In this document: piece by piece, positions 6,001-19,411 of the stretch | How the letters are laid out: every line of letters starts with the position of its first letter | How positions within the stretch are numbered: the first letter of the stretch is position 1 | From: an uncultured Oribacterium sp. | GTDB lineage: Bacteria > Bacillota > Clostridia > Lachnospirales > Lachnospiraceae | Direction: 5' to 3' | Length of the DNA: 64,000 nucleotides | NCBI GenBank assembly: GCA_946413525.1 | Contig: CAMKKZ010000008.1 | Coordinates: forward strand, 1-64,000 | Notes under the pieces: generated by a model | Told to the model about the DNA's origin: nothing | Database searches by the model: none | What the model saw: the letters and a program-made list of their open reading frames with translations, nothing else | Translations under genes and position numbers: made by a program

Positions 6001-6267
6001 CAGGAGATCCGCCGCCAGTCCTTCAGAATCTTCTTCAACAGACAGGAGATCCGCCGCCAGTCCTTCAGAATCCTCTTCAACAGACAGGAGATCCGCCGCC
6101 AGTCCTTCAGAATCCTCTTCAACAGACAGACAACCCTCCGCATCTACGGAAGACTGCCTCACAACGTCCATAGACTCCGCAGCATAACTCACAGAGCTAC
6201 CTATTAGGGAGCTTGCCAAAGTAAATGCAAGCATCCTTTTCATTATGACTCCAAACGACCGCTTCAT
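1..6267 (-). CDS. Giant secreted surface protein, C-terminus off window
   Basis: An open frame runs from the ATG at 6267 to the window edge, 2089 codons with no stop met in the lines I checked. An AAGGGAG ribosome site precedes it; a second ATG at 6243 is also possible. The N-terminus is a signal peptide (MKR, hydrophobic stretch, SYAAE). Then come long Asp/Glu/Ser tracts with 14-aa repeats (about residues 45-98) and 12-aa EKSDTD repeats (about 320-363). A transglutaminase-like core follows, with Cys720 in CEGYSKA, His759 in NHMWNV and Asp775 in MVDVTNCD. After it are a BspA-type leucine-rich unit (about 905-930), several InlB/Flg_new-type repeats ending in YAVW (about 975-1420), a beta-helix-like stretch, and at least two YDGTAKTPAVTVKDG repeats at the end. 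This architecture is typical of clostridial adhesins or cell-wall proteins. The substrate is unknown and any anchor motif lies off the window. Confidence 0.85.
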   Translation of the reverse strand, partial: MKRSFGVIMKRMLAFTLASSLIGSSVSYAAESMDVVRQSSVDAEGCLSVEEDSEGLAADLLSVEEDSEGLAADLLSVEEDSEGLAADLLSVEEDSEELAEDQQGLREEIGSDDAVDLEDVAFADGESFASDEETETLPEKEQDADDEADIALEDSLETGKDSDGEDPVSDDEDTDVEKEIESEAGDPLANENDKTDDAWAEDEMDAESNDEMNVESDDEIDSESDVEMELESDDEIDSDSDNGMDLESNDKMDAESNDEDIVDTEEDGKTDSDEQETALDESARTDDHTEDNTGSAADTDLEAEAEKSDTDNDSNLNEEFGMTEKSDTDGEPETVEKSDTDEEPETAEKSDTDGEPETAEKSDTIEEPDTEEDSKMNGDSAIAENSDTDEESDMTQKSSIDEESGIIDEESSEIDEESDTDGESAPFDEEAVLLQEESGEIESIETENGKEEGIVEVDAEFVTVRNVDLADSDELFEEYLESLMYPEEEAVLQEDRGELLGETDHAIYEYLKAGIMEIASGQRDSSEFTISTKDFFGQEKFTPKDLGVDPALVDGDISSEAVAALQERLSWHPVAIVRALLLDLPYEFYWFDKTKGYSYSTGVSCSYSYSVEDQIVTSITPGNHSISFSVSSDYSQSGERGTYLPSMEKTGAASQSVAYARDIVDEAVSMSDYNKLVHYRERICEETSYNHDAVNNNAPYGDPWQIIYAFDKDPETKIVCEGYSKAFKYLCDLTKFSSNKIECYLATGTMNGGTGAGNHMWNVIHMNDDKNYMVDVTNCDEGSIGADDRLFLVGYKSGSLGSGYVFGWDSYQVGNLIYSAASITYTYDDFTREKFSDEELTLSSEDYDPSYQEQENPSGNPCGDNCTWVLENGVLTISGTGTVVKGGWDKEAVTSLVIGDGITEISSNTFEGCAALETATFPASLSTVGKAAFSSCGALADIHYQGSKSGWDGITINNDENANTVLYQATIHCQDGDIGLFKVFFHANDGRDEDIVEELSLARGHNAIKLPSGPENAKRIFQAWCTKESESADGAARFAENDTEYNEFYPDQYTDADGKLHLYALWQMRPGVMLHANFPDGTDETVFLEASDGGSSSVRLVDQGEWSSRVSGKLIIGWATSRDAAPGDDSVLGTGTDYQLPEELEEAPDLYAVWAKECAIRLYRNLDAADEETEVRTGLEGTKLTLGEPFGKKQDGRDFIGFSTNRNADPSDEGIYKAGDEYTVQNDADLYAVWSSTRSFDLVFHANYDYEGEQPESLVYTEEEGTEVRFDSGKYLAALWEGDGFPVILRDEYELVGWSPDPAAEPGDEDILTKQSSFTVSKNMEFYAVWRRNVKVTFDPNGGYLLNVIDGSIVNERITEPIIVWMPQGSDFFQNLEGRFIVGYDSAGGTNMVFSGWAYDAAGKEMLPDELTATEDVVVYGVWRAGIPVRVDMGEYFQSLNADGRYIDFYASEGKAIQEKPDLLQYYTENLIPEGTMAFAGFRVYLNGSGTAEDGILPTYNAYVPPQGTKNVFFEAVVETEDLAELTFYGKDIRNAQGEAIGNMDGHFFHDGGAEGESYVHAYAVKGKKVNTSLKAQEGGIPAILYSPEYQSLYQFLGWTTEENGQDIVDFDSLVITGDMAFYPVINKMSWQVGDEYFEAADEAIEAANESGKTLILLRDSSEGLLFPEGSDVELNLNGFSIDAQDGIGIRSQGSLSIKGEGSIYGEAGSLRNTGTVRIEGESISFGKTEGVNVPVQNIGGTMDVHSGEFQCGIENLDGGILKFDGGNCYGECKNAGSGSRIIVSDGYFWKPLVQASDNGEIEIIHGVCYQGLRLEGDCGGSIHVSGATPSFSGEIRASSGSDGTGSGNGRIILDDGDYYGVKAIVLEEGSSAELLIHGGSYWNLSPQAITIEEGSTSSVTIDGGGFGADFTGSEYLSEGLYCEKMEDDYWHVLSLKDLSDCDVELEYSSSVYDGTAKTPAVTVKDGGKTLSAGTDYAVTYANNVNIGTATVTLTGKGNYSGTIKNSFTITAKALSGLAVSLSSGSFVYDGTAKTPAVTVKDGSRTLSAGTDYTVSYADNVNVGTATVTLTGKGNYSGTIEKSFTITAK
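5180..5305 (-). repeat. 36-nt in-frame tandem repeat (EKSDTD units)
   Basis: Three and a half copies of a 36-nt unit encode 12-aa EKSDTD(G/E)EPET(A/V) units in the acidic stalk of the surface protein. Units start at 5180, 5216, 5252 and 5288. The copies are nearly identical, so length variation by slippage is plausible. Confidence 0.85.
5974..6133 (-). repeat. 42-nt in-frame tandem repeat (SVEEDSEGLAADLL)
   Basis: Four units of 42 nt (the last partial) encode the 14-aa acidic repeat just after the signal peptide of the surface protein. The units differ by only a few bases. Confidence 0.85.
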
Positions 6268-6762
6268 AACCCCTGTCTCCCTTCTTTTCAGATTTCCAAA
6301 TACCTTTTCTCAAACACTGCCTGTGCCATTCCGGGTAATTTAAAATAATAAAATTATTGTATGCATGTAACTATTCTGCGCCCTATTCATCTCCTGCTTA
6401 CCGTACTCGATACGCCAATATAAATGCTTCATGTGAAAAGCCATCTTTCTTTATTTCCATCCTATCAGATTAAACAATTTTTTTGAAATTTTCAACAAAA
6501 AAATGGCTGATGGCAGTTACCCGTGTATACACATATATAAAAATATATCGACATTTTTTTCTTAAATATTAACAATTTTTTGTCCAAAAGAACTGTCAAT
6601 ACGATTTTTTGTTACTTTTCAAAGAAATACAAACTCATATTCAAGCGATTATGAGCACGATTTTGAGCAATTTTGAGCGATACAGATGAATACGGATGAA
6701 TAGTAAAAAACGCTTGACAAATCACGACAAAATGAGTAATATAATCAAGCCAGCGAAATTAA
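6268..6762. other. AT-rich intergenic region, promoter of surface gene
   Basis: No gene is supported here. The stretch is strongly AT-rich and should hold the leftward promoter of the surface protein gene and the rightward promoter of tRNA-Gln. At 6366-6388 it has a 21-base segment differing at two positions from the terminal repeat of the miniature elements at 41 and 42 kb. At 6650-6700 there are short direct repeats (ATTTTGAGC, GATGAATA). I see no recognisable riboswitch. Confidence 0.5.
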
Positions 6763-6834
6763 AGGGCTATCGCCAAACGGTAAGGCAACGGACTCTGACT
6801 CCGTCATTTCCTGGTTCGAATCCAGGTAGCCCTG
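6763..6834 (+). tRNA. tRNA-Gln (anticodon CTG)
   Basis: A full cloverleaf can be drawn. The acceptor stem is a perfect 7 bp (AGGGCTA with TAGCCCT) and the discriminator is G. The D arm is GCC/GGC, the anticodon stem ACGGA/TCCGT carries loop CTCTGAC, and the T arm CCTGG/CCAGG has loop TTCGAAT. The anticodon CTG reads glutamine CAG codons. CCA is not encoded. The first pair is A-U, a weak 1-72 pair as expected for tRNA-Gln. A terminator follows directly. Confidence 0.93.
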
Positions 6835-6839
6835 TCAGG

Positions 6840-6874
6840 ATCCTCCGGGAATTATGTTCCGGAGGATTTTTTTT
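6840..6874 (+). terminator. Rho-independent terminator of tRNA-Gln
   Basis: ATCCTCCGG, a 10-nt loop, then CCGGAGGAT followed by a run of seven or eight T. It lies six bases after the tRNA. Confidence 0.9.
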
Positions 6875-6982
6875 GTGAATAGGGTTTTATTTTACGGAAA
6901 TGGCGTATTTTTGCGATAATTGATTTTGTATATTTAATGACTTATTTTTCAGCAACCGAAATATTCATATGAGGATATTCAT

Positions 6983-7688
6983 ATGGGATTATACTTTCAG
7001 CCGGGAAATCTCCCTTTCAAAAAAATATCGTCAAAGAAAAGTTATGTGGATCGCACAGCCCTCATTGGGGAAATCAACAGACAAATTGATAATGGCGATA
7101 ACCTGATCTGTCTCAGTTTGTCGCGCAGAAGCGGAAAAACCTGGCATTTTCGAACTTTGTATTCCTATTATGACGAAAGCTGTGATTCCAGCACGTATTT
7201 TGACGGGACGTCAATTTCAAAAGATCCATCCTACAAAAAACATTTAAACAAGTACATTGTGATCCGGCTGGATATGGCCGTTCTCTTCTCTGACATGCCT
7301 GTATCGAAAAATATCCGGGATTACGTTGAAAAAGAACTGAAAGACGAGGCATTAAATATTTTTCCCAATCTTGATCTTTCATCCGAATGGAAAATCAATG
7401 TGATCCTATCCCGAATAGTCTCAAAACTTTGGTCGGGATCCGGATTCCGTTTTCGCCAGAATACCAAACCTGGAGCTCCGCAAAATTTTCAGGGATCTTT
7501 TGGATCCGCAAAGCGGGATGACCGAGCTTGTCCGGTTCATGAAGAACTCTCTGCAGCTCATGAAGGATGCGGAGGAATTAAACAGCAAGGCCGTTGCGGA
7601 AGGAATAGAACGCTATTTTGGGGAACACAAAGCAGGATATCCTTTTTGTCGGCAATTTAATCGCCAAAAAACCGCTTTAACGCTTTAA
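6983..7688 (+). pseudogene. Decayed AAA-ATPase (AAA_9 / PD-(D/E)XK type)
   Basis: The first frame from 6983 (MGLYFQPGNLPFKKISSKKS...) matches the N-terminus of the predicted AAA-ATPase family common in Clostridia, including a P-loop-like LSRRSGKT. Near 7440 the family match leaves this frame and continues in another as RIPNLELRKIF, the family's helicase-to-nuclease junction, ending at 7688. The central ATPase region with the Walker B motif (LLIDEYD) is missing, so the gene has an internal deletion and a frameshift. Intact members are usually over 500 aa. A GAGG ribosome site at the start shows it was once expressed. A short piece with the missing LLIDEYD motif sits at 11.1 kb on the other strand. 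Confidence 0.75.
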
Positions 7689-7715
7689 CACTTTATTAGA
7701 GGAGTTGTATAAATC

Positions 7716-8465
7716 ATGGCTGATTATACTGAAAAGAAAAATCTGAACCTGCTGTCGGCAATTGATGAATTGAAAAAGACACAAAACGAAGAAACGTTGA
7801 ATCTTTTCCTTGATGAACTGGCCCACAACGCGGAGTTTTATGCTCCCATGCGGACGGTCGGAAACGGGAAGGATGCCCGTCCCGCCTTTGCCATCATTTC
7901 CGACAAGGAAAAGCACCAATATTACGCCTTTTTCACCTCAAAGGAAAAAGCGCATTTATGGAGCCAGAGGAAGGAGAAGTACGCTCTCCTCTCCTTTCAG
8001 AAGATTGCCGGCATGTCCATAGGGGATCCCCGCATTGCCGGCTTCGTCATCAACCCTGCCTCTGACAATTTCATCGTCGGGCGCAAGCTGATTTCCGACG
8101 CGGCCCGCCTCCTCCATGCGGAATCCTTTGACCAGGAGGCCGAGGAAATCAAGGCCCCTGTGGAGTTTCAGGAACCGGATGGGAATTACGAGGAAATGCT
8201 GGACGCCCTGAAGGAATATATGCGGGGCGATTCCAACATTTCTGCCGCTTACCTTTTGCAGGCGGAGATCAACGGACAGACCAGCTATGTTATCATAGTC
8301 AACCATATTCACAAGATGCAGCCGAGCTTCGGAAACATCGGTCTCATCGCAAAGGATTTCGGGAACGGCCGGCCGGTAGCCCTCCTTTCAGCCCGGGCCA
8401 AAGAGGCCGGGGAAGCCATCAAGGATATCATGCCATTCTACGTGCGTCCCTTTGTGGTTAAGTAA
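7716..8465 (+). CDS. SseB-family protein
   Basis: The 249-aa product has the layout of SseB ('enhanced serine sensitivity') proteins: an N-terminal SseB domain (about 20-130, with PAFAIISDKEKHQYYAFFTS) and a second related domain (about 150-249) ending MPFYVRPFVVK. There is no signal peptide or membrane segment. The biochemical role of this family is not established; some members lie near secretion or toxin loci. GAGGAG lies 11 bases before the ATG. Downstream is the PfoR-like membrane gene in the same direction with an 80-bp gap, so the two may be cotranscribed. Confidence 0.75.
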   Translation: MADYTEKKNLNLLSAIDELKKTQNEETLNLFLDELAHNAEFYAPMRTVGNGKDARPAFAIISDKEKHQYYAFFTSKEKAHLWSQRKEKYALLSFQKIAGMSIGDPRIAGFVINPASDNFIVGRKLISDAARLLHAESFDQEAEEIKAPVEFQEPDGNYEEMLDALKEYMRGDSNISAAYLLQAEINGQTSYVIIVNHIHKMQPSFGNIGLIAKDFGNGRPVALLSARAKEAGEAIKDIMPFYVRPFVVK

Positions 8466-8544
8466 TGGAATCATATGGAATGATTGAACAGCCCTTCGGC
8501 GATTTAAGGGTAATCCGGGGATGAATCCGGGGAAGATGTGAGTC

Positions 8545-9633
8545 ATGAACAAGCTGCAGCAGTTTTTGAAGAAGAAAAATATCGAAATATCCTTAAAGCG
8601 TTACGGGATTGACGCTTTGGGTGCCATGGCGCAGGGGCTTTTCTGTTCCCTGCTGATCGGAACAATCATTAATACGGCCGGAACGCAGTTCCAGATCCCC
8701 TTTCTTTTGAAGCCTGTGGCTTCCATCGGGGATGTACAGTATACCGTGGGCGGCATTGCCTCCGCCATGAGCGGGCCGGCCATGGCCGCCGCCATCGGCT
8801 ATGCCCTGAAATGCCCCCCTCTCGTGCTCTTCTCCATGATATCCGTGGGCTTTGCCGCGAATGCCCTGGGAGGGGCGGGCGGGCCGCTGGCCGTGCTCTT
8901 CGTCGCCATTCTCGCGGCGGAGTGCGGGAAGGCCGTTTCCGGGGAAACGAAGATAGACATCCTTCTGACCCCCCTTGTCACCATTGGCGTGGGCATCTTC
9001 CTCTCCTGGCTGATCGCTCCGCCTCTCGGAAAAGCGGCCATGTCTGTCGGCGGGCTCATCATGTGGGCTACGGAACTGGCTCCTTTCTTCATGGGGATCC
9101 TGGTCTCCGTCATTGTCGGCATGGCTTTGACGCTCCCTATCTCGTCCGCGGCCATCTGCGCCGCCCTCGGCCTTCAGGGTCTTGCGGGAGGAGCGGCGGT
9201 GGCGGGATGCTGCGCCCAGATGGTGGGCTTCGCCGTCATCTCCTTCCGGGAAAACCGCTGGGGCGGGCTGGTCTCCCAGGGCATAGGAACCTCCATGCTG
9301 CAGATGGGAAACATTATCCGGAACCCCCGGATCTGGATCCCCCCGACCCTTTGTTCCGCAGTGACGGGTCCCATCGCCACCTGCATTTTCCGGCTGCAAA
9401 TGAACGGCGCCCCCGTCTCCTCGGGCATGGGCACCTGCGGGCTGGTCGGGCAGATCGGAGTTTACACCGGATGGATCCAGGACATTGCGAACGGCGCGAA
9501 AGCCTCCATCACGCCCATGGACTGGGCCGGGCTCTTCCTCATCTCCTTCCTGCTTCCCGCAGTGTTATCCCTGATATTTGACGCGATCTGCCGGAAGCTT
9601 GGCTGGATCCGCGAGGGGGATATGAAGCTTTAA
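8545..9633 (+). CDS. PTS EIIC_2 / PfoR-type membrane protein
   Basis: The 362-aa protein has about nine or ten hydrophobic segments with many Gly and Ala residues. Landmarks such as GGIASAMSGPAMAAAIGYAL, ELAPFFMGILVSVIVGMALTLPISSAA and SQGIGTSMLQMGNI are characteristic of the family that includes Clostridium perfringens PfoR and EIIC-like permeases without EIIA/EIIB domains. It probably sits in the cytoplasmic membrane. Its substrate is unknown and it may be regulatory rather than a sugar transporter. A purine-rich GGGGAAG precedes the ATG. No PTS partner genes are nearby. Confidence 0.8.
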   Translation: MNKLQQFLKKKNIEISLKRYGIDALGAMAQGLFCSLLIGTIINTAGTQFQIPFLLKPVASIGDVQYTVGGIASAMSGPAMAAAIGYALKCPPLVLFSMISVGFAANALGGAGGPLAVLFVAILAAECGKAVSGETKIDILLTPLVTIGVGIFLSWLIAPPLGKAAMSVGGLIMWATELAPFFMGILVSVIVGMALTLPISSAAICAALGLQGLAGGAAVAGCCAQMVGFAVISFRENRWGGLVSQGIGTSMLQMGNIIRNPRIWIPPTLCSAVTGPIATCIFRLQMNGAPVSSGMGTCGLVGQIGVYTGWIQDIANGAKASITPMDWAGLFLISFLLPAVLSLIFDAICRKLGWIREGDMKL

Positions 9634-9658
9634 AACCCAGATTTTCTTTGCTCTCGTA

Positions 9659-9682
9659 ATCCCTGTGCCAATGCACAGGGAT
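9659..9682. terminator. Perfect 10-bp hairpin after PfoR-like gene
   Basis: ATCCCTGTGC, loop CAAT, GCACAGGGAT, starting 25 bases after the stop. There is no T-run on either side, so it may act as an mRNA-stabilising hairpin rather than a true terminator. Confidence 0.4.
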
Positions 9683-9708
9683 CATCTCACCCAGTGTCAT
9701 AGAAAGGA

Positions 9709-9989
9709 TGTTGTGTTGAAAAGGTAGCTGCACATGGATCCGGCCCGCACAACTTCCTGGCATTTCAGCTTCTTTACAATGGAAAAGACCTGTGCCGCGT
9801 CAGGCTTGATCATCCTTCCCTCATCATCTTCTCTGATGAACCTGGAAGAAGTGAAGGAACCGTTTAATGTTTGCCTTGTGGTCTTCCGTTGCCCTCGCAG
9901 CAGCGCCAATATTATTCGCAAATTCATCGAAAAAAATGAGCTTCCTTGCCGAGTCGAAGTCACAGATGCAGGAGGTTTCTTTCTGGAAT
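9709..9989 (-). pseudogene. Fragment of a second helicase/GIY-YIG gene
   Basis: This segment aligns along its whole length with 12558-12838, inside the large helicase gene. Shared peptide stretches are DDEGRMI-DAAQV-SI and KLKCQEVVRAG-MC-YLFN, plus FQKETS and FFDEFANN in a shifted frame. The reading frame is broken and only about 90 codons survive. The homology stops abruptly at 9990, where sequence matching the region upstream of the intact operon (18529 onward) begins. I read it as the remains of an earlier copy of the island that suffered a large internal deletion. Confidence 0.8.
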
Positions 9990-9990
9990 G

Positions 9991-10770
9991 ATTTCCATAA
10001 TTATGTGTGAATATTATCGATTATAGGGCTTCAACAACATAACCCCACACATTATCATGAGACTTCCCTTCTACGTTTATAATCACGTCTGGCATCTCAT
10101 TCATTCCACACTTGAATCCCTGTTTGGTTTGTCTTCTGATAAAGCCATACGGTGAAAACAAGGGGATTGTATCTCAAAGGGATTCAGCAAGGAGGTGCCG
10201 TTTGGAAATAAAGGAGCAGCAAAAGCCATCATATGAAGATCTTTCTCGCCGGGTTCGGGAGCTGGAGGAGCGTCTGAGAATCATGGGAAACACGGAGTAC
10301 AAATCCAGGCTGTTCAGCTTCCTCTTCGGGCGTGAGGAAAACAAGGAATGGACGCTCTCTCTATACACATGAAAGACGGCAGTGCCGAAAACGACGGCCT
10401 GGAGATAGGTATTGCCATTGACAAGGCAATAGACGATATGCCGGAAGATTTCCTGATCAGGGAATTTCTCCTGGCACACAAAGCGGAGGTGAAAGACATG
10501 TGCCTTACTGAATATAACGAAGCGGAAACGATGGAAATGTTCCGGGAGGAGGGCCGAGAAGAGGGCCGAGAGGAGGGCCGGGAGCAGGGCCGAGAGGAGG
10601 GCCGGGAGCAGGGCCGAGAAGAGGGCCGGGAAGAGACCACGGTCACTCATATAAAAGATATCATGGAAAGCCTTGGATTTGGCATGGAAAAGGCCATGTC
10701 CGTGTTGAAAATCCCGGCAGAGAAATATGGCATGTACAGGTTGCTATTGGAAAAATCAGGGAAAAGCTGA
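9991..10770. repeat. Left copy of island-flanking direct repeat
   Basis: Diverged direct repeat of 18529-19383. Both begin ATTTCCATAATTATGTG, pass through GGCATCTCATTCATTCCACA and end with the broken Rpn-nuclease gene. The left copy lacks about 180 bp present at roughly 18600-18770. The pair brackets the restriction operon. Confidence 0.85.
10202..10770 (+). pseudogene. Rpn-type nuclease/transposase gene, core deleted (left copy)
   Basis: A TTG start at 10202 behind AAGGAGGTG gives an N-terminus with RRVRELEERL and SRLFSFLFGREENKEWTLSLY, typical of Rpn/PD-(D/E)XK 'recombination-promoting nuclease' proteins of Lachnospiraceae. That frame stops at 10372. The C-terminal part continues in an overlapping frame from 10348 (IGIAIDKAIDDMPEDF, AEVKDMCLTEYNEAETMEMF) and ends in seven EGRE/QGRE units before a conserved tail. 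Roughly 200 residues of nuclease core are absent relative to the family as I know it. The copy at 18.9 kb shows the same join, so the deletion came before duplication. A short C-terminal protein from the ATG at 10348 could still be made. Confidence 0.75.
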
Positions 10771-10873
10771 ACGTAAGCATGAAGAACTTTTCAACGCCTC
10801 TAAGAAACTTGTCGCTATATCAAGGTTTCGTAGGTCTATTTTTTCAGCCTTCCTTCTGCCTGTCGGCTTATAT

Positions 10874-10907
10874 TAAAAAAGGCATTCGGGATTACTCCTA
10901 AATGCCT
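10874..10907 (-). terminator. Terminator of restriction operon
   Basis: Read on the minus strand: AGGCATT, a 14-nt loop, AATGCCT followed by six T. It lies 30 bases beyond the last remnant ORF of the minus-strand operon and is the first good terminator after the helicase stop at 11162. Confidence 0.7.
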
Positions 10908-10938
10908 CTCCTCTCACATAAAAACGAACTTTTGCAAA

Positions 10939-11158
10939 TTACTGCTTAAAAAGTTTTACCCTGGCCTGCTTCCATTCGGATACTATCTCAGTAGCACGAT
11001 CTTTGTCCCCATTCAACATCGTATCAATAAGATCGTTTATTGTATCTTTCTCACTTGCTTTCTCAAGAGAGGACATCGTATTCATCGATCAAGAGAATGA
11101 CTTTTTCCCATAAATGGCATTCATCATGCGAATAATTGAATATCGGATACTTATTCAT
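10939..11158 (-). pseudogene. Short AAA-ATPase remnant
   Basis: Four bases after the helicase stop, an ATG at 11158 opens a 31-codon frame ending KVILLIDEYDVLS, the Walker B signature of the AAA-ATPase/PD-(D/E)XK family. Reading continues, one frame over, from the ATG at 11076 as a 45-aa peptide MSSLEKASEKDTINDLID... to the stop at 10939. The gene is clearly broken. The second part (DTMLNGDKDRATEIVSEWKQ) is not something I recognise and could be a separate small protein. The missing Walker B segment of the pseudogene at 7 kb is the same motif, on the other strand. Confidence 0.5.
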
Positions 11159-11161
11159 CCA

Positions 11162-14100
11162 TTAAATCCCATATTCCCCTCGTAAAAACTCTTCCAGTTT
11201 CCCTTCCTTCGCATATACAAGGGTGTCGGCCATTCGGAAGTTATGGTTTTTGATTTCCGTCTTCTCATCGAAGCCAAGGATGAAATTCACGGCGATCCGG
11301 TAGATGATTTCTGTCGGAGCAAGCCCGTATACCTGCTTCTCAAAAATATGTTTGAGCCGTGCGTGACCGTCCGGATAGATTTCCCGCATCTTCTCTGACT
11401 GATATATCCTTTTGACGATTTCTGACACATAAAGCCCGGACTTCATGTAAAGGTCCGCGAAGGTCTTATCCGGATCATCGAAGCACCCCGGGTTCTCTTC
11501 TTCCAGCATATCGACCATCTGCTTTACGATCCGCTTCGGCGTGAAGATCTGGTTCGTTTTCTGCGGCGGGATGTAGTCGAAAATATCCTCTTTCTGCGAC
11601 TCATCGAAATAGTTAGCCAGCTCCCGTTTTTTGTTCAGGAATTCCTTAATAGAATCATTGAAAACTGTTTCATCGAAGAGATGCCCTTCCCAGTGTTCCA
11701 TCTTTCCCGTAACCGGGTCAATCCTGTCTCCCCCATCCCTCAAATACAGGAAGTCATCGATCCCAATGCCGGTCACTTCCATGAATACAGCATTATTAAC
11801 ATATTTATCGAAATTAGCCAGGGTCAGCCTGTCATCTCCATAAGCCATGATGAAGCTCGGTATTGTCCGGGAGAAACCGCGCAGATGGGCGCGCACTTCC
11901 TCTTCCGTCTCATGTTTCGCGGCCTCCAGCTTGTTCTTTTCAAGCTGCTCAATCACCTCGACTGGCTTTTCATCGATCGTTTGTTTGATTGTATTTTGTG
12001 CGGCTGTCACGATCTCGTCCAGCAATCCCTGCATCCTGGATTCGTAAGCTTCGTCCGCCTTCTTCACCTCAACCTCAGTCTTTGCTGACTGCCGTGACCG
12101 TTCCAGAGCCGCCTTCGCAATCGCCTCCTCCTGCCGGTAGTCATCCGCGATTTTCCGGAAAGTCTTTTCAATGTCCTTCTCTATCTGCGATTCGATACGG
12201 TTCTTTGCCGCCTTTTTCGGATCATATTCATCCATGACTGGCTTCATACGTTCCTTCACGGCATCCTTTACCGAGTCCGCGATCTTTTTCATTTGTGTAT
12301 CGATTGCTTCAGGCGCCCTGGAGTCCTCTTCCAGCAGGTATTCTGTCTTTGCAATAATGTCGCTTTCGTCGTAGATCTTGTCCGCAAAGAATTTATTTGC
12401 CTGGCCGATTACGATTTCTTCCGGCACCTTTACATCGCCGTTTTCATCTACCGAAATGTCGTTGTCAAGTGCCGCGTCGTTCCGGGTTTTCTTTTCCTCC
12501 TGAGCAGTTTGAAGCTTTTTCACAATGTCCATGACGGCAGCGGAAGCGTTAAACACGTTGCCGATATTGAAAAGATAATTGCACATGAAGCCGGCCCGCA
12601 CGACTTCCTGGCATTTCAGTTTCCCTGGAATGGAAAGGACCTGTGCCGCGTCAAGCTCGATCATCCTTCCCTCGTCATCCTCCCCGATGACCGGGAAGAA
12701 GTTCAGGAGCCTTTTGATGTTTGCCTTTCGGTCTTCCGTCGTCTTCACTGCAGCGCCAAGATTATTCGCGAATTCATCGAAAATAATGAGCGTCCTTGCC
12801 GGGTCGAAGTCAAAGATATAGGAGGTTTCCTTCTGGAACGTCTCTCCGTTTACGGTAAACATGCAGGGATTCTGCGCCCGGAATGCCGCCTGCATATAAG
12901 ATGAAGGGCTCTTTAAGTTACAGAGCATCAGGACCGCGGACCATTCCGGCACCGTCACTCCGACCGTGAGCTGCCCGACGGTCAGCGTAATCGTTTTCTC
13001 ATGGGCCGCGATGGCATTCTTTACCCTGTCGAAATTCTTCCTGGCCGTATCGTTATCCTCATCTTCATCTTCATAGTTTGAGCTTCCGTCTCCCACGACC
13101 TTCACGATATAATACTCGCCAAATACCGGATCCGCTTTCAGCAGCTTTTCCAGTGCCTCAACACTTGCGATGCGGTTCAAATACCATAATGTATGTGACA
13201 GTTCCTTCCGAAGCTGCGGCGTTGAGAACGGATATTTTTCCTGCGTGCTTAATGCCTGCAGGAATCGTTTGATTTCCTTTTCGTGATAAAACTTCCCTTG
13301 CTCATCCACGGCAAAAAATTCGTTCAGGTCAAAGGCGTAATCCGTGAAATCCTCGGAGTTTTTGATCTTGTCACGGATCATATCGGACATCTGATAGGTG
13401 TACATGGCAAGGGACGGCAGCGGTTCATAAGGATTGTACCCCTCACCATCCCATTCTGCCTTCCGTTCCTGTTCGTCAGCGTAGGACCAGTTGAAGATCT
13501 GGTCGGCAGAAAATTTTGCGGACGCAAGCTGCTTGAATGGAGTGCCGGACAGGTACAGCGTATGATCCCGATTGATGTTATCAAACGCTCGCTCAGTGCG
13601 AATGGTCTCGATGCCTTCCTGTGCTTCATCAATGATCAGCAGATCAAACTTGATTCCATGATGAACGACAAAGTTATTATCCTTGTATTCTTTGGCCATC
13701 CATTCGAGCTTGTCAAACTTCCCGCCAAAATAAGAGGAACCTTTAAGACCCTGCAGCGACTCAAAAGCAATCATGCCCTTCTGCTCGTCTTCTGCTGCTG
13801 CGTTCATGCGCTTCTTGTATTCCTCCCGGCTCAATACCCCCGGCTTATCCTTTAAGGAATCGTTTTCGGACACAAAGCAAAGAGGTGCTTTCCAGCCAAT
13901 AAATTTCTGGAAATCCTCCGCCCATGCGTTCGCGATAGATGGCCTGTTCGTGACGATCAGCACATTCTGAAAGCCCATTCTGCATACAAGGTCATACGCA
14001 GTCAGCGTCTTTCCAAAACGAGGCTTGGCGTTCCACAGGAATTCCTTTCCGCCTTTCTCAAAATAGGCCTTCGTCATCTCCACTGCCGCTTCCTGCTCGG

Positions 14101-14515
14101 CCCTCAATGTGTAAGTATTTCTCTTTGACGACTGCGTCACAGTCCCTCTTCCGGCAAACTCATTAAAATACAGCAGGGATTGAGAGGCTTCAATCCTGAA
14201 CCATTCCGGCTGATTTGTCCCTCCTCCGTCCCTTCTTTCAACCCCTTTGTCAATTTCAAGGAACGCATGGAATTCTTTATCCGTGAAGGATTCACCGGAA
14301 TTATCCGTATATCTTGCAATCCCCTTCCACAAAAGGCGCGTTGTAATATCCGCCGTCTGTGTCTGCTGTCTGATACGTGCCTCGGGGGTCTGCTTATTCG
14401 TATAACCGATTTTGATCCAGCCGTCATGATATGACACTCCCGGCGTGTCATAAGCATAGATCATCGGCTCGACCTTCGCGAATGATTTAATATTCGGTGT
14501 GTTCTGCTCGGACAT
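11162..14515 (-). CDS. GIY-YIG / SF2 helicase / methylase-half fusion
   Basis: The 1117-aa protein is the last intact gene of the restriction operon, starting one base after the preceding stop. Residues about 18-60 (MIYAY...WIKIGYT...PEARIRQQ) look like a GIY-YIG endonuclease of the T5orf172 type. Residues about 140-600 form a superfamily 2 helicase: Walker A AKPRFGKT at 163-170, IDEAQ at 295-299, SGTP at 323-326. A charged, probably coiled region (about 700-900) follows. The last 130 residues look like motifs X and I of an N6-adenine methylase (QIFTPKRIV at 989, FADLYMKSGLYVSEI at 1019, VYGLAPTEIIYRIA near 1063), but the chain ends before NPPY, which is in the upstream gene. It probably translocates on DNA, cuts it, and pairs with the NPPY protein to complete the methylase. 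That pairing is inference. Confidence 0.75.
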   Translation of the reverse strand: MSEQNTPNIKSFAKVEPMIYAYDTPGVSYHDGWIKIGYTNKQTPEARIRQQTQTADITTRLLWKGIARYTDNSGESFTDKEFHAFLEIDKGVERRDGGGTNQPEWFRIEASQSLLYFNEFAGRGTVTQSSKRNTYTLRAEQEAAVEMTKAYFEKGGKEFLWNAKPRFGKTLTAYDLVCRMGFQNVLIVTNRPSIANAWAEDFQKFIGWKAPLCFVSENDSLKDKPGVLSREEYKKRMNAAAEDEQKGMIAFESLQGLKGSSYFGGKFDKLEWMAKEYKDNNFVVHHGIKFDLLIIDEAQEGIETIRTERAFDNINRDHTLYLSGTPFKQLASAKFSADQIFNWSYADEQERKAEWDGEGYNPYEPLPSLAMYTYQMSDMIRDKIKNSEDFTDYAFDLNEFFAVDEQGKFYHEKEIKRFLQALSTQEKYPFSTPQLRKELSHTLWYLNRIASVEALEKLLKADPVFGEYYIVKVVGDGSSNYEDEDEDNDTARKNFDRVKNAIAAHEKTITLTVGQLTVGVTVPEWSAVLMLCNLKSPSSYMQAAFRAQNPCMFTVNGETFQKETSYIFDFDPARTLIIFDEFANNLGAAVKTTEDRKANIKRLLNFFPVIGEDDEGRMIELDAAQVLSIPGKLKCQEVVRAGFMCNYLFNIGNVFNASAAVMDIVKKLQTAQEEKKTRNDAALDNDISVDENGDVKVPEEIVIGQANKFFADKIYDESDIIAKTEYLLEEDSRAPEAIDTQMKKIADSVKDAVKERMKPVMDEYDPKKAAKNRIESQIEKDIEKTFRKIADDYRQEEAIAKAALERSRQSAKTEVEVKKADEAYESRMQGLLDEIVTAAQNTIKQTIDEKPVEVIEQLEKNKLEAAKHETEEEVRAHLRGFSRTIPSFIMAYGDDRLTLANFDKYVNNAVFMEVTGIGIDDFLYLRDGGDRIDPVTGKMEHWEGHLFDETVFNDSIKEFLNKKRELANYFDESQKEDIFDYIPPQKTNQIFTPKRIVKQMVDMLEEENPGCFDDPDKTFADLYMKSGLYVSEIVKRIYQSEKMREIYPDGHARLKHIFEKQVYGLAPTEIIYRIAVNFILGFDEKTEIKNHNFRMADTLVYAKEGKLEEFLRGEYGI

Positions 14516-14516
14516 T

Positions 14517-15533
14517 TCAGTTCATCTCCTTCACATGAGTCTCAATGAATTCTATCTCCTCATCGGTAAGGCCGTACTTTTTGTAAAGCTGCTGGTCAAT
14601 CTCCGGGATGGATTTGGACCAGTCAATGTCGGAGGAAGGGGTGAAGTCCTGGAGAGGGACGTACTTCCACTTTGGGCCCGGACAATCTTGTGTGATTTTC
14701 AATACGCCAAGCATTGCTCTGCAGAATTTGCATTTTATATACTTGCTGACATTTTCTGCTTCAATTTTTGTATCAAATGCGCCAATGCCAATAAATGTTT
14801 GTGTATATGCCGTTCCAGGTTCGGCAATGATATCTTGTGACAGTGTTTCTCCGAAATCCCCCGCTCCATTTGCTTTAGATATCAGCACATTGTATTTATC
14901 TAGAGCTCCCGTACCGTCATTTATATAATCACGACGGATATAACGTTTCACACGTTTTGAAGACAAAAGTCCAATCATTTCTATATAATTGCTACCATCT
15001 TTTGGTAACTTCTCAAAAAATATTGGAGCGAGAGCTGTAAATGCACTTGTCCGTAATCTATCCACTAATTCTGGATGTTCGCTTTTCATTAATTTCGAGA
15101 CTGTATAGTTTAATGGTGAAGAAATGATTTCATTTAAGAATTGCGTGGAAATGGCCCTGACCTTCTTTAAAATCGCATTTAATTCCTGGAATTTTGTAAA
15201 CGTTCCTATGGCACCAAAAGTTTTATTATCGTCTCGATAGGTAATTGCTATGCCGCCTTTTATGTCAGTGTTTGGAAATACCTTTGTGCAATCAGCTTCA
15301 TAAAGTTCCACCTTGAAATGTTCGTCATTCAACATTTTTTCATTCCATGGTTTTGGTGTATAACCAGCATTGAATAAAAATCGTGCAGGTGTAATAAGTT
15401 GTACTGCATCTGCTACTTTATATGCCTCATCCATAAAAATGTTATATAGTGGTGGCATTCTCGTGCTTTCTGATTCTGTCGTTTCCATATACGGCGGATT
15501 GCCAATTATAAAATCAAATATATGTTCACTCAT
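14517..15533 (-). CDS. Eco57I-type methylase half with NPPY motif
   Basis: I start it at the ATG at 15533 (MSEHIFDFIIGNPPY), behind AAGGAG 10 bases upstream; a longer frame begins at 15566. The 338-aa product opens almost at once with FDFIIGNPPYMET, catalytic motif IV of N6-adenine methylases. It continues with family landmarks LYNIFMDEAYKVAD, PARFLFNAGYTPKPWNEKML and PNTDIKGGIAITYRD. The C-terminal half (about 170-338, WKYVPLQDFTPSSDIDWSKS) resembles the target-recognition part of type IIG enzymes. There is no SAM-binding motif I upstream of NPPY, so it should be inactive alone. Two other operon products carry motif-I-like segments and are candidate partners. The base composition is AT-rich compared with neighbours. 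Confidence 0.8.
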   Translation of the reverse strand: MSEHIFDFIIGNPPYMETTESESTRMPPLYNIFMDEAYKVADAVQLITPARFLFNAGYTPKPWNEKMLNDEHFKVELYEADCTKVFPNTDIKGGIAITYRDDNKTFGAIGTFTKFQELNAILKKVRAISTQFLNEIISSPLNYTVSKLMKSEHPELVDRLRTSAFTALAPIFFEKLPKDGSNYIEMIGLLSSKRVKRYIRRDYINDGTGALDKYNVLISKANGAGDFGETLSQDIIAEPGTAYTQTFIGIGAFDTKIEAENVSKYIKCKFCRAMLGVLKITQDCPGPKWKYVPLQDFTPSSDIDWSKSIPEIDQQLYKKYGLTDEEIEFIETHVKEMN

Positions 15534-15549
15534 ATTTTTAATTCTCCTT

Positions 15550-17529
15550 TCACATAATATCGGCAAGCTTCATGCCGTCATATTCCCAGTATTGTGCTCC
15601 CTGGTATGATCCTGACACGCTTACTGTTCCTCGTCTAACCTGGAGTTCTCTAGTTAAGGGTGACAGCCTCCATCTCTTCCCCTCAAATTCCACTTCCTTG
15701 TCAGAGATTACTTTTGCCCTGATGTTCGGGTCGGCAATAAAATCAATGTACGAATCAACGATTTGAAGATCCACAAAAGACAGTCCCTTATGTTCCTTTA
15801 CGGAGAAATTATTACGGCGCCGCATCTCATCCGGTATCGGCAATACTTCATTTAAAAGAAAATCAATCATCCATCTCATTCTTTTCTTTATGGCTTCATC
15901 ATTCCACTCGTCATTGTTCGTAATTTCCGTTCTTGCAATCTGAAGGCCTGCGTTGTTTTCATAGACTTCTTTTTTCTCGGAAAATGGTTTTTGTCCAAGT
16001 TCCTGATTATGCCTTATCAGCGTCAGGTTTCCGATATTATTTACATAAGTCTGATGTATGTCATCTGCCTTCTGACCCAAATCGTCCCTCCACCTGTCGT
16101 TTAATTTTTGAGGCATAATGTGCTCAATTTGGAGTTTTTTGTCGTTTTGATCCGGTCTGCTTTTTGTCAGCTTCTCTTCAATCATGGATAAAAACAGCTT
16201 GCAATGTTTGAAATTAAAGAAATTCATGGTTTCCAATATGCGTGCGGCTTCAATGTCATTTGGAAGCCGCGTATTGCTTTCCTGATTTGCCAGTATTTCA
16301 AACATTTTTACTTTTTTGTTGTCTGCGCGTTTCAAATCAATGATTTTGTTCGTCAGCATTGGAAAGTTTTTATTTTCTGCCGAAGTGATCCCCAAAAGGC
16401 GTCTTCTAAAGCAATAAATCTTAAAAACATCAAGTATATTTGCGGCGTCATCTTCCAAAAATGAACCGTGTTTCCATTCGTACAGCAATGCCATAATGAA
16501 AGAATAAGCCGTTGTGACATTGATTCGTCTTAAATCAGCCAGTATTGTATCAATCCGCGTACTTCCGGATTTAGCATCACCGATAATGCAGGCATAAATA
16601 TTGGAGTATTCAGAAAGGCTTTCCATTAAACCGCTCGCTTCCAATCCATCAAATAATTTTTTGAAAGAACTGTAAAGCTCTTTGTAATTCGATTCATATG
16701 CTTTTGGAAAAGGCTTTTTTGCCATGCACTGCATATAGTCCCTGATAAAATCTGAAACTTTATGGGGCACGGTTTTTTCAATATGCATCCAATGCTTATT
16801 GTAAAGCTTTGTCTGAGTGTCTGCGTCAAGCCCGAGCAGCAGATAATTACGCACAAGATCCGCCAGGGAAAGCGGTTTGCCCAACGAATTCATTGACTCA
16901 AAGATTTCCTGCGGGCTTTCCCATGAATTTTTTCTTGGTTCAAGTTCAATCGTTATTACACTGAATTTGTTGATTCCTTTGTCTACAAGGGCGCCAAGAT
17001 CGTTTCCGTTTTCCTTGTATTCTTTCAGCTTATTTTGGAAATATTTGTAATTACGATAAACTGGTGATTCCTTTTCCGAATCACTGATCGGTTCGCCTAA
17101 TACGATATTTTTATAGACATTCCAATCTGTCTCTACTTGTTTCAGCTTTATCTTATATTCGCCGTCTCCGGCAGCGCTTTGATTTTTCAAGTATTTGTTT
17201 TCTATGAAGGCCTTTAAATCTTTATCCTCAAGAATATCCCGTAACGCAACAAGAAAGAGCATTGTTGTCGTTATCCTTTGCTGTCCATCAATCAATACAA
17301 GTTTGTTCGGCTGTCCAAATGGAGTTTCATCCTGGAAGTATGTAATTGATCCGAAGAAATGTTCAACTTCCTTTCCGTTAAGGTTGTTGAAGCTTGTTTT
17401 CTTCACATCATCAAGAAAGACCTGGCATTGTTCTTCTGTCCACTCGTAATTTCTCTGATAGGGAGGGATGAAGAAGGTTACATCATTGTTTGATAATAAT
17501 TTTAGCAATTTGCTTTCCTGCGGTACCAT
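15550..17529 (-). CDS. GmrSD-like DUF262/DUF1524 protein
   Basis: The 659-aa protein starts one base after the preceding gene's stop. Residues about 10-250 form a DUF262 (GmrS-like) domain with the diagnostic LVLIDGQQRITTTMLFL near 77-93. Residues about 430-560 form a DUF1524 HNH-nuclease domain with KLQIEHIMPQKLND and NNIGNLTLIRHNQELGQKPF. GmrSD enzymes are nucleotide-dependent nucleases that in known cases attack modified phage DNA. The last 90 residues (EFEGKRWRLSPLTRELQVRRGTVSVSG..YWEYDGMKL, broken by charged loops) resemble a RAMA-like module often attached to methylase-associated proteins. That assignment is weak. Its place inside a methylase operon is unusual for a type IV enzyme. Confidence 0.8.
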   Translation of the reverse strand: MVPQESKLLKLLSNNDVTFFIPPYQRNYEWTEEQCQVFLDDVKKTSFNNLNGKEVEHFFGSITYFQDETPFGQPNKLVLIDGQQRITTTMLFLVALRDILEDKDLKAFIENKYLKNQSAAGDGEYKIKLKQVETDWNVYKNIVLGEPISDSEKESPVYRNYKYFQNKLKEYKENGNDLGALVDKGINKFSVITIELEPRKNSWESPQEIFESMNSLGKPLSLADLVRNYLLLGLDADTQTKLYNKHWMHIEKTVPHKVSDFIRDYMQCMAKKPFPKAYESNYKELYSSFKKLFDGLEASGLMESLSEYSNIYACIIGDAKSGSTRIDTILADLRRINVTTAYSFIMALLYEWKHGSFLEDDAANILDVFKIYCFRRRLLGITSAENKNFPMLTNKIIDLKRADNKKVKMFEILANQESNTRLPNDIEAARILETMNFFNFKHCKLFLSMIEEKLTKSRPDQNDKKLQIEHIMPQKLNDRWRDDLGQKADDIHQTYVNNIGNLTLIRHNQELGQKPFSEKKEVYENNAGLQIARTEITNNDEWNDEAIKKRMRWMIDFLLNEVLPIPDEMRRRNNFSVKEHKGLSFVDLQIVDSYIDFIADPNIRAKVISDKEVEFEGKRWRLSPLTRELQVRRGTVSVSGSYQGAQYWEYDGMKLADIM

Positions 17530-17530
17530 T

Positions 17531-18454
17531 TTATTCCCCCTCTTTTTTCAAATCCTTAAAAACAATGTCTTTCTTCCTCTTCCAATCTCTGATTACGCAA
17601 AGCTGTGCTTCATTTACATCATCCGCCCCAGCTTCATCCATATTGAAAAGAGTGATCTGCTCGGTCTCTACCGCCGGCCTTCCCAGCGGCACCGTATCTT
17701 TTAACCCGTCCATCTGCCAGATGTTCCAACTGATGATTTCCGCAATATTCCTCAGCGTTTTCAAGTCCGGCTTCTTCTCCCAGCGATCCTCATAATAATC
17801 GACATATGTCATCAGAAGGTTGATCCTTGCGATGAGGAGGCTGTCTCCCTGATATTCGTAGCCATATATAGACTGGAACGCTTTTGTTGCCCATGTCTTC
17901 CAGGTTTTTATTTCTTTTGTGTTTTCGTTCACAATACGGAGCTTCCGGTCAAGTAATCCGATCCTACGTTTTGGCGGCAGGATGAGATCTCCTGTGGCCG
18001 CGTCGTATCTTGACACAAGGAAAGGCGCCTCTCCGCATGTTATTTCCAGACGGTTGGAATTCACATACTGCGTCCATGTCTTTCCCTCAGGGAACTTAAT
18101 ATTCTCATTCGTTGTAAGCCATTCATGGCCAAATTCTGTGTTGAAAACATTCTTTCTTCCGAACCACTCCTCATCCACGTAATTATTCATCTGATTACAG
18201 AGCCATACAGGCGTAAACACCTCCGCCTTCTTTCTGGTTCTCGCCTGCTGTTCTTCCAGAGCCTTTTCAATGCGGGGCTGCAGCAGGACGGCGTCAAGGC
18301 CGAGCAGGTCTGTTTTTGTGATCTGCTTGCGGCCAGAAAAGCCATGTTCCTGATATGCGTCCGTGGCCCATATGATGTTCTGGCCTGTTGTGCGGTCTTT
18401 CAGTAAAATATCCAATACTTTTTCTGTTGGATACGTGCGTAGATTAATCAGCAA
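17531..18454 (-). CDS. Restriction subunit M-like SAM-binding half
   Basis: The 307-aa protein is first in the operon. The start is TTG at 18454 behind AAGGAGGG. It carries motif X (AEVFTPVWLCNQMNN, 77-91), a variant motif I (LEITCGEAPFLVSRYD, 136-151), a motif II/III-like region (SIYGYEYQGDSLLIARINLL, 195-214) and IISWNIWQMDGLKD near 245. It matches proteins annotated in many genomes as 'restriction endonuclease subunit M'. It ends without any NPPY catalytic motif, so it is either one half of a split methylase or a methylase-like scaffold. The motif I sequence TCGEAPF departs from the usual PxCGSGxF, so SAM binding is uncertain. Confidence 0.75.
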   Translation of the reverse strand: MLINLRTYPTEKVLDILLKDRTTGQNIIWATDAYQEHGFSGRKQITKTDLLGLDAVLLQPRIEKALEEQQARTRKKAEVFTPVWLCNQMNNYVDEEWFGRKNVFNTEFGHEWLTTNENIKFPEGKTWTQYVNSNRLEITCGEAPFLVSRYDAATGDLILPPKRRIGLLDRKLRIVNENTKEIKTWKTWATKAFQSIYGYEYQGDSLLIARINLLMTYVDYYEDRWEKKPDLKTLRNIAEIISWNIWQMDGLKDTVPLGRPAVETEQITLFNMDEAGADDVNEAQLCVIRDWKRKKDIVFKDLKKEGE

Positions 18455-18868
18455 GGTCTTTCCCTCCTTGTATGCATGGATAATATTATAGCATAAAGCA
18501 TTCTTTTGTTAAAGAAATATTTCCATAATTATGTGCAAATTTTAGCGATTATAGTGTTTTGTCAACATAAAAAGCCGCATTTTCATGTGACTTCCCTCCA
18601 GTGTTTTTGTTACTGTTCAGACTTCCTGATTTTCCATTGATTGATGTATATGTAATTTTCCATGCCCACAAGCCACTCCTCCCACGGATTCCTGGCAGGG
18701 AAATTAGTACTATTGGCAAGAGTGTAGAAGTGTGAAATGTGAATTGTAACACGTTTTTAATCACGCTCGGCATCTCATTCATTCCACACTTGAATCCCTG
18801 TTTGATTTGTCTTATGATAAAACCATACGGTGGAAACGAGGGAATTTATAAGGGGGTGTCGTTTCGGA
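18455..18868. other. Upstream region of restriction operon
   Basis: About 410 bp without a supported gene. It should hold the leftward promoter of the four-gene operon and the rightward promoter of the Rpn remnant. From 18529 onward it belongs to the direct repeat shared with 9991-10770. The part at about 18600-18770 is unique to this copy and holds only short frames I do not recognise. Confidence 0.4.
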
Positions 18869-19383
18869 ATGAAGGAGCGGCAAAAGCCATCATATGAAGA
18901 GCTTTCCCGTCGGGTTCGGGAGCTGGAGGAACGTCTGAGAATCCGGGGAAACACGGAATACAAATCCAGGCTGTTCAGCTTCATCTTCGGGCGTGAGGAA
19001 AACAAGGAATGGACGCTCTCGCTATACACATGAAAGACGGCAGTGCCGAAAACGACGGCCTGGAGATAGGCATTGCCATTGACAAGGCAATAGACGATAT
19101 GCCGGAAGATTTCCTGATCAGGGAATTTCTCCTGGCACACAAAGCGGAGGTGAAAGACATGTGCCTTACTGAATATAACGAAGCGGAAACGATGGAAATG
19201 TTCCGGGAGGAGGGCCGGGAGCAGGGCCGGGAAGAGGGCCGGGAGGAGACCACGGTCACTCATATAAAAGATATCATGGAAAGCCTTGGATTTGGCATGG
19301 AAAAGACCATGTCCGTGCTGAAAATCCCGGCAGAAAAATATGGCATGTACAGATTGCTATTGGAAAAATCAGGGAAAAGCTGA
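18529..19383. repeat. Right copy of island-flanking direct repeat
   Basis: Direct repeat partner of 9991-10770 in the same orientation, with many scattered differences. It contains the upstream boundary of the restriction operon and the second broken Rpn gene. Confidence 0.85.
18869..19383 (+). pseudogene. Rpn-type nuclease/transposase gene, core deleted (right copy)
   Basis: The ATG at 18869 opens MKERQKPSYEELSRRVRELEERL...SRLFSFIFGREENKEWTLSLY, stopping at 19033. The C-terminal part begins in an overlapping frame at 19009 (DALAIHMKDGSAENDGLEIGI) and runs to 19383 with only three to four EGRE/QGRE units. The internal join is the same as in the copy at 10.2 kb, with the nuclease core missing. 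The shorter repeat tail shows that tract length changes between copies. A 124-aa C-terminal peptide could be made from 19009. Confidence 0.75.
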
Positions 19384-19411
19384 ACATGTGTGGAAAAGCA
19401 TCGTCCGCATT

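Follow-up and report, generated by a model that had tools for sequence, protein, structure and literature searches.

A DrdVI-like restriction-modification operon from an uncultured Oribacterium in which one catalytic and recognition half may serve both a methylase and a nuclease

Gene organisation and domain content

A four-gene operon was analysed in a 64,000-nucleotide (nt) stretch of DNA from an uncultured Oribacterium sp. (assembly GCA_946413525.1, contig CAMKKZ010000008.1, positions 1 to 64,000), referred to below as the window. The genes lie on the minus strand from 18454 to 11162 in the order g1, g2, g3, g4, and all four reading frames are open, confirming the gene order and coordinates of a first-pass annotation made from the sequence. 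The interpretation preferred here, with a probability of roughly 0.58, is that the operon encodes a restriction-modification system resembling DrdVI, in which a single catalytic and target-recognition half, g3, would serve two enzymes, the g1 methylase and the g4 nuclease. The relatives described below point to a rule for a sizeable and poorly described group of restriction systems, namely a nearly constant set of half-domains distributed over proteins with moving boundaries.

The first gene, g1 (18454-17531, TTG start, 307 amino acids; all features of the operon are on the minus strand), encodes the lone S-adenosylmethionine (SAM)-binding half of a gamma-class adenine methylase, the role of M1 in DrdVI. 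It contains motifs X (FTP, 18209-18217), I (LEITCGEAPFL, 18017-18049), II (YGYEYQ, 17849-17866) and III, and NPPY is absent. No Pfam match was found for g1 at an E value of 1 or better; the PADLOC model PDLC03390 MTase_II recognised it with E 2.4e-106. The product of g2 (17529-15550, 659 amino acids) is a GmrSD-type (DUF262 plus HNH) type IV nuclease, with GmrSD_N at 120.6 bits and GmrSD_C at 80.2 bits, and is considered an optional companion. The third gene starts at 15566 (TTG) or, as is likely, at 15533 (ATG), ends at 14517, and carries the NPPY catalytic half and a target-recognition domain. It matched Pfam Eco57I at 54.3 bits over profile positions 71-171 of 171, and PADLOC MTase_II PDLC03375 over 11-348 of 348. 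Motif IV, GNPPY (15489-15503), stands at the very start of the gene, as had been claimed, although the position cited for it, 15533, is that of the ATG; g3 contains no SAM half. GNPPY is encoded once in the 64 kb on both strands, against an expectation of 0.04, one occurrence being found in 4 of 100 shuffles, and the genome of origin has a single g3 match.

The last gene, g4 (14515-11162, 1117 amino acids), combines a GIY-YIG nuclease domain (T5orf172, 14180-14515), a ResIII helicase/translocase (13535-14113) and a second, variant SAM half, called here the K-half (11162-11695). The GIY-YIG domain was missed in the Pfam scan of the whole protein, and residues 1-147 scanned alone gave T5orf172 at 24.8 bits (cut-off 20), with matches in 15 of 15 aligned members. 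Two nuclease types and a helicase had been predicted for the operon, and GmrSD_N, GmrSD_C, ResIII and T5orf172 all score above the Pfam cut-offs. No recognition domain was seen in domain scans of the g4 protein. In the PADLOC model PDLC03626 REase_MTase_IIG, which has 1359 positions, g4 aligns at 154-626 and g3 at 1012-1359. The suggested comparison with PADLOC placed g1, g3 and g4 on methylase or restriction-methylase models; g2 found its top matches in "Orf5" (E 1.1e-108) and HEC-06 (E 4.8e-62), names that are left uninterpreted here. An NCBIfam scan of the operon proteins returned nothing useful.

Two SAM halves, one of them with a lysine in motif I

The first-pass annotation described the g4 C-terminus as carrying motifs X and I and stopping where motif IV should follow. 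Motif X (QIFTP) is indeed present and the protein ends at that point; motif I (DLYMKSG, 11435-11455) is non-canonical, with a near-invariant lysine instead of the first glycine, and the motif II equivalent (YGLAPT, 11312-11329) is without its acidic residue. In profile comparisons the g4 half matched the M2 halves of DrdVI-type systems at 99.2% (E 2e-19) and M1 halves at 94.5%, the M2 halves matched M1 at 97.7%, and g1 matched DrdVI-type M1 at 99.3%. In the profile searches that the annotation had proposed, g2, g3 and g4 matched Pfam and the g4 C-terminus matched both M2 and M1 halves. Searches of solved structures with the sequences of g4, g1 and g3 alone gave nothing convincing, and profile searches of structures found no match for the g1-g3 fusion (E up to 0.1) or for the g4 half (E up to 5). 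A single marginal match, to PglX (E 0.097), came from the M2 profile; in its alignment CGSG stands opposite the lysine motif and GLDID opposite GIAIT.

In gamma-class enzymes, the motif I glycine and the motif II acid contact SAM. The alignments are subsets of the relatives described below, comprising the window protein with 24 of 45 g4 halves, 29 of 84 g1 proteins or 35 of 68 g3 proteins. Among the g1 sequences the motif I glycine is found in 30 of 30 and the motif II acid in 30 of 30 (29 Glu, 1 Asp); among the g4 halves lysine replaces the glycine in 25 of 25 and alanine the acid in 25 of 25. The motif II acid is also absent in all 31 aligned M2 halves and kept in all 38 aligned M1 halves. 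Since the M2 rows were picked by a pattern requiring lysine and the M1 rows by one requiring glycine, the selection itself dictates those two motif I columns but leaves the motif II columns free. With a pattern allowing either residue, lysine was found in 37 of 37 readable open reading frames (ORFs), duplicates included.

Over all relatives, lysine occurs in 117 of the 118 readable K-halves (120 K-half ORFs, those of L203 and L205 being short and left unread; the K-halves of L129, L134 and L139, which the pattern misread or failed to find, were set right by eye). The single readable K-half with threonine instead (LDIAGTSGE) belongs to a helicase-K-g3 fusion at 10916-14977 of L092. The glycine pattern is fitted by 135 of 141 g1/M1 parts; as to the six misses, glycine is visible by eye in L157 and in one piece of L163, L161 and L163 contain pieces of broken genes, and L160 and L164 were left unread. 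NPP followed by Y, F or W is present in 121 of 130 NPPY-half ORFs, and among the nine others some are fragments and L067 reads NPAY. Nine cases in which NPPY was scored within the g1-like part are g1-g3 fusions with the motif inside the tested stretch. Because the lysine stands in motif I and the motif II acid is gone, the SAM half of g4 is probably disabled and would no longer bind SAM.

Relatives, layouts and natural fusions

A search with g1 of 84,980 species genomes yielded 498 relatives, the 80 best being retained, and more loci were added from further genomes, plasmids and viral contigs, most DrdVI-type loci being found with M2. Discovery by g1 or M2 means that loci without either are under-sampled. 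When the same 391 genomes, all from the class of the window, were searched with profiles of the g4 half, g1 and g3, matches were found in 16, 17 and 21 of them, respectively. After removal of near-duplicates 144 loci remained, of which 108 hold all four core elements: the g1-like SAM half (A), the second SAM half (K), the NPPY/recognition half (B) and the helicase (H). Since "complete" is defined by finding these four, only their number and arrangement are results. Short copies of matches (L001-L012, L093-L126) were excluded from the census, and the window itself is outside the 108. Among the 36 incomplete loci, 14 are flagged as touching the end of a stretch, and eight have g1 alone and no flag, these being either contig ends or remnants.

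The layout of the window, A / B / H-K, is found in 33 of the 108 complete loci, A / K-B / H in 31, A-B / H-K in 19 and A / H-K-B in 16, with nine rarer or broken arrangements. B and A are each present as a single copy in 106 loci and K in all 108, the four doubles being genes split into two ORFs. By these layouts and copy counts, the set of elements varies little, and what shifts is its division into polypeptides. In the database records consulted, the group is annotated piecemeal, under names such as "restriction endonuclease subunit M", "Eco57I restriction-modification methylase domain" and "DEAD/DEAH box helicase".

B occurs naturally fused to A (L007 and others) and to K (L127, L141, L146), always in the normal order of methylase motifs, and the predicted model of a natural g1-g3 fusion of a relative has a complete methylase fold. 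The first-pass annotation regarded the methylase as cut and rearranged across polypeptides. The cut is borne out by the natural g1-g3 and g4-g3 fusions and the profile matches, but "permuted" is limited to gene order, because the fused halves join in the normal order; a circular permutation of the methylase is ruled out by the same fusions. The tie of the methylase to a helicase and a GIY-YIG nuclease agrees with the fusions, with the M2 and M1 profile matches of the g4 C-terminus and with the fold model.

Several individual loci extend this picture. At 7782-12554 of L042, two g1-g3 fusions with 64.6% identity stand in tandem, and a third g1 begins after them at the stretch end; the tandem possibly provides several specificities. 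A Bifidobacterium longum plasmid copy (L143) has an IS256 transposase gene between g1 and g3 (10059-11243). The M2 profile search returned 40 viral-contig loci, and in the phage NatCom_35866 from human feces (L234, 5238-10469) three adjacent genes form a candidate DrdVI-like set by their order and a g4 match.

Coupled evolution and exchange of the g3 cassette

In 48 loci, pairwise distances of g1 correlate with those of the K-half (r 0.87) and of the helicase (r 0.88), and the central part of g3 correlates weakly with g1, the K-half and the helicase (r 0.33, 0.27 and 0.24). Mean identity is 57.7% for g1, 69.7% for the K-half and 70.4% for the helicase; for g3 it is 41.1% in the central part and 75.2% and 65.8% at its two ends. 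Within 50 loci, 69 pairs share 75% or more identity in g1 and 80% or more in the K-half, and in 61 of these g3 is below 60% identical, in 10 below 45%. In the pair L068/L071, g1 is 93%, the K-half 95.5% and g3 30% identical, the DNA similarity ending just past NPPY and returning about ten codons before the end of g3. Comparable internal replacements of g3 are seen in L041/L039, L074/L076, L030/L020 and L013/L155.

With g1 and g4 unchanged, such a swap of one cassette can be tolerated only where that cassette directs both activities, or where there is no active restriction. The former is the simpler reading of the sequences, by which g3 would set one specificity for methylation and restriction together. 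If this is true, one small exchangeable protein resets both at once.

Proposed mechanism and alternative explanations

According to the preferred reading, g1 (SAM binding) and g3 (NPPY and target recognition) would form an N6-adenine methylase marking the host DNA, while g4 would bring a GIY-YIG nuclease and an ATP-driven translocase. The latter protein may borrow g3 through its C-terminal SAM-half homologue, the K-half docking g3 in the place of g1 to give a complex presumed to cleave DNA. This docking is proposed because g4 has no visible recognition domain, its K-half being the only obvious link to recognition, and because relatives of the K-half directly precede NPPY in single-chain proteins. 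A single recognition domain would thereby fix the specificity of methylation and restriction by sharing half of a methylase fold. In type I systems, HsdS sets the specificity of both activities alike. As an optional companion, the GmrSD protein may act on phage DNA with modified bases.

A more specific version is advanced tentatively, with less than even confidence: the SAM-disabled half of g4 would be a decoy competing with the true SAM half for the one NPPY/recognition half, so that g3 would become the catalytic half of a methylase or the aiming part of a nuclease, in mutually exclusive complexes, depending on the half that completes its fold. If so, the pairing of g3 decides between self-marking and attack, and the near-invariant lysine in the would-be SAM pocket is a testable marker of a decoy subunit.

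Several observations weigh against the proposal of a shared g3. The g4 half and g1 do not match significantly when their profiles are compared directly (22%), their link passing via M1, and one subgroup of helicase-K-g3 fusions has no significant profile match to other K-halves (5.3%, 8.9%). The near-invariant lysine could serve SAM binding instead of marking its loss. The docking of g4 with g3 is proposed from fusions and homology, and wherever g1 is fused to g3, g4 would face competition from a covalently joined partner. The uncoupling of g3 is also partial: its end part correlates moderately with g1, the K-half and the helicase (r 0.44-0.45), and the weak correlations of its central part are still above nearly all of 500 permutations. 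Finally, L204 encodes a DrdVI-type K-half-NPPY protein and a helicase (5965-10450), and no g1/M1 was found in the 5.9 kb upstream.

It is possible, but on balance unlikely, that g1, the g4 half and g3 always act together as a ternary holoenzyme, such as M1-M2-R of DrdVI, with the K-half as a structural cap or dimerisation face and not as a second docking partner able to displace g1. The nearly always single core elements of the complete loci fit this explanation, as do the DrdVI-type loci with the K-half and g3 in a single protein (31 of 108), the joint cloning of M1 and M2 of DrdVI (PMC6430315), and Bibersteinia Btr188ORF1790, which the accessible part of its source describes as like M1 N-terminally and like M2 C-terminally (PMC4996451). 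Against it stands the finding that both kinds of SAM half occur fused straight in front of NPPY. The usual methylase fold, moreover, pairs one catalytic half with one SAM half.

A still less probable explanation is that the g4 half and g3 constitute the working methylase, i.e. a type IIG enzyme cut in two with the lysine in an unusual SAM pocket, and that g1 is an accessory or regulator. Single-chain helicase-K-g3 proteins with normal motif order (L127, L141, L146 and others), the almost invariant lysine and the absence of a detected g1/M1 in L204 would be accounted for. The motif II acid, however, is absent from every aligned g4 and M2 half and kept in every aligned g1 and M1 half, and it is the g1-g3 fusion that gives a complete methylase in the predicted model. 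In addition, a normal SAM half, lone or fused to g3, is found in 108 of the 111 non-redundant loci having a K-half, g3 and helicase, a share inflated by the discovery of most such loci with g1, and two of the other three touch a stretch end.

Comparison with known systems

The first-pass annotation knew of no named system with this exact make-up, but a named and partly characterised relative exists in the "split methylase" of DrdVI of Deinococcus wulumuqiensis 479 (PMC6430315) and of MaeIV of Methanococcus aeolicus, so described in the accessible part of the source (PMC10113651). Plasmid pDrdVI encodes M1 (212 amino acids), a K-half-NPPY protein (M2, 539 amino acids) and a helicase (851 amino acids). 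Like DrdVI, the window has a separate SAM half with intact motifs and no NPPY (g1), one NPPY and recognition half (g3), and a GIY-YIG-translocase protein (g4), and motif I of DrdVI M2 likewise has lysine. The difference lies in the K-half: DrdVI has it in one protein with the NPPY half, none being found in the R protein, whereas in the window it is attached to the helicase and g3 stands alone. Because its K-half is on g4, the operon is a variant and not a member of the DrdVI type. The plasmid stretch shown for DrdVI has no annotated GmrSD gene, whereas the window has g2.

In Bibersteinia, Btr188ORF1790/ORF1760 shares with DrdVI an M1-like part, an M2-like part and a GIY-YIG protein; the first two are in one gene, and the part of the report that could be consulted describes the system as fragmented and not active (PMC4996451). 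PADLOC PDLC03626 covers a helicase-K-g3 layout in one model, whereas the window splits g4 from g3. Permuted domains grouped around a single recognition module are known from type IIG-like systems, and OspHL35III resembles the window in having one recognition domain and, separately, a translocase and a GIY-YIG endonuclease. The MmeI-like methylase of OspHL35III, by contrast, is not split but a single protein, according to the accessible text (PMC4752239). M.AquI and M.EcoHK31I are natural two-polypeptide methylases, but of the C5 type and cut elsewhere, and neither a second competing half nor a helicase is mentioned in the available portion of that article (PMC3404938). The fused methylases in the accessible part of PMC12898733 are of another kind.

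The operon shares with type IIG enzymes a single recognition domain for the whole system, given its one NPPY/recognition half, but nuclease and methylase are not in one polypeptide. It differs from type ISP enzymes (LlaGI/LlaBIII) in having no single nuclease-helicase-methylase-recognition polypeptide, and from type III systems in having no complete Mod in one protein, the only GNPPY starting g3, which has no SAM half. No description of the two SAM halves, the lysine or the moving boundaries was found in the accessible literature, which excludes REBASE and most subscription papers and is not proof of absence.

The GmrSD gene and other cargo

The domains GmrSD_N and GmrSD_C are both represented in g2, as in GmrSD type IV nucleases, and the first-pass annotation had implied that the gene is an integral part of the operon. 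This was not upheld, since a GmrSD-like ORF lies inside or within 200 nt of the operon, on the same strand, in at least 17 of the 108 complete loci. The count was made with a DGQQR pattern in ORFs of at least 300 codons and is a lower bound, the annotated DUF262 gene of L142 being missed. Twelve of the 33 window-type loci have an A-B gap exceeding 300 nt. Ten cargo ORFs, nine of them situated in this gap and one, in L058, in the gap preceding g4, were scanned against Pfam and gave YhcG/DUF1016 (two), Schlafen AlbA_2, RhuM, HNH, DUF3368, ATPase_2/DUF234, ExoX-like, DUF4268 and HEPN. In view of this varied cargo and the GmrSD count, g2 is one of several passengers.

That GmrSD is an integral second nuclease of a four-part machine is therefore very improbable for the window and is ruled out as a rule for the group. 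The packing of g2 between g1 and g3 on the same strand and the presence of relatives 60% and 65% identical in the same position in L047 and L075 would favour it, but GmrSD-like ORFs occur at differing positions and other cargo occupies the same slot in other loci. Probably g2 is a type IV complement, by analogy with BrxU, a GmrSD nuclease next to BREX that is described, in the part of the source available, as giving complementary protection beside a methylation-based defence (PMC8565348). The two differ in their partner, which for BrxU is BREX. Between the g1-g3 fusion and g4 of L062 lies a small separate protein (3122-3844) that looks GIY-YIG-like by eye, and its C-terminal stretch resembles, also by eye, the tail of window g2.

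Junctions and flanking regions

Genes g1 and g2, as well as g3 and g4, are separated by 1 nt; at the g2/g3 junction there is a 17-nt overlap with the TTG start of g3 and a 16-nt gap with the ATG start. The sequence AAGGAGGG sits 7 nt upstream of the g1 TTG start. Further upstream, a promoter-like TTAACA-16-TATAAT with TG (18485-18512) is identified by match to consensus alone, sites of this consensus numbering 16 across the region against 15.1 expected from shuffling.

To the left of the operon, 9716-9988 holds what is left of a second copy of g4, a relic of 273 bp that is 85% identical to 12567-12838 within g4 and suggests an earlier duplication or a previous copy. The relic would suit a decayed, inactive locus retained by chance, an explanation hardly credible beside four open frames with intact motifs and conserved relatives across many genomes. 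Direct repeats, 87% identical, are located on both sides of the operon (10073-10772 and 18751-19385) and might be recombination sites for its gain. Each carries an ORF with a repeated REEGREQ-like stretch and no Pfam match at E 0.01, and eight full or partial copies of the repeat, both flanking ones counted, are present in the genome of origin.

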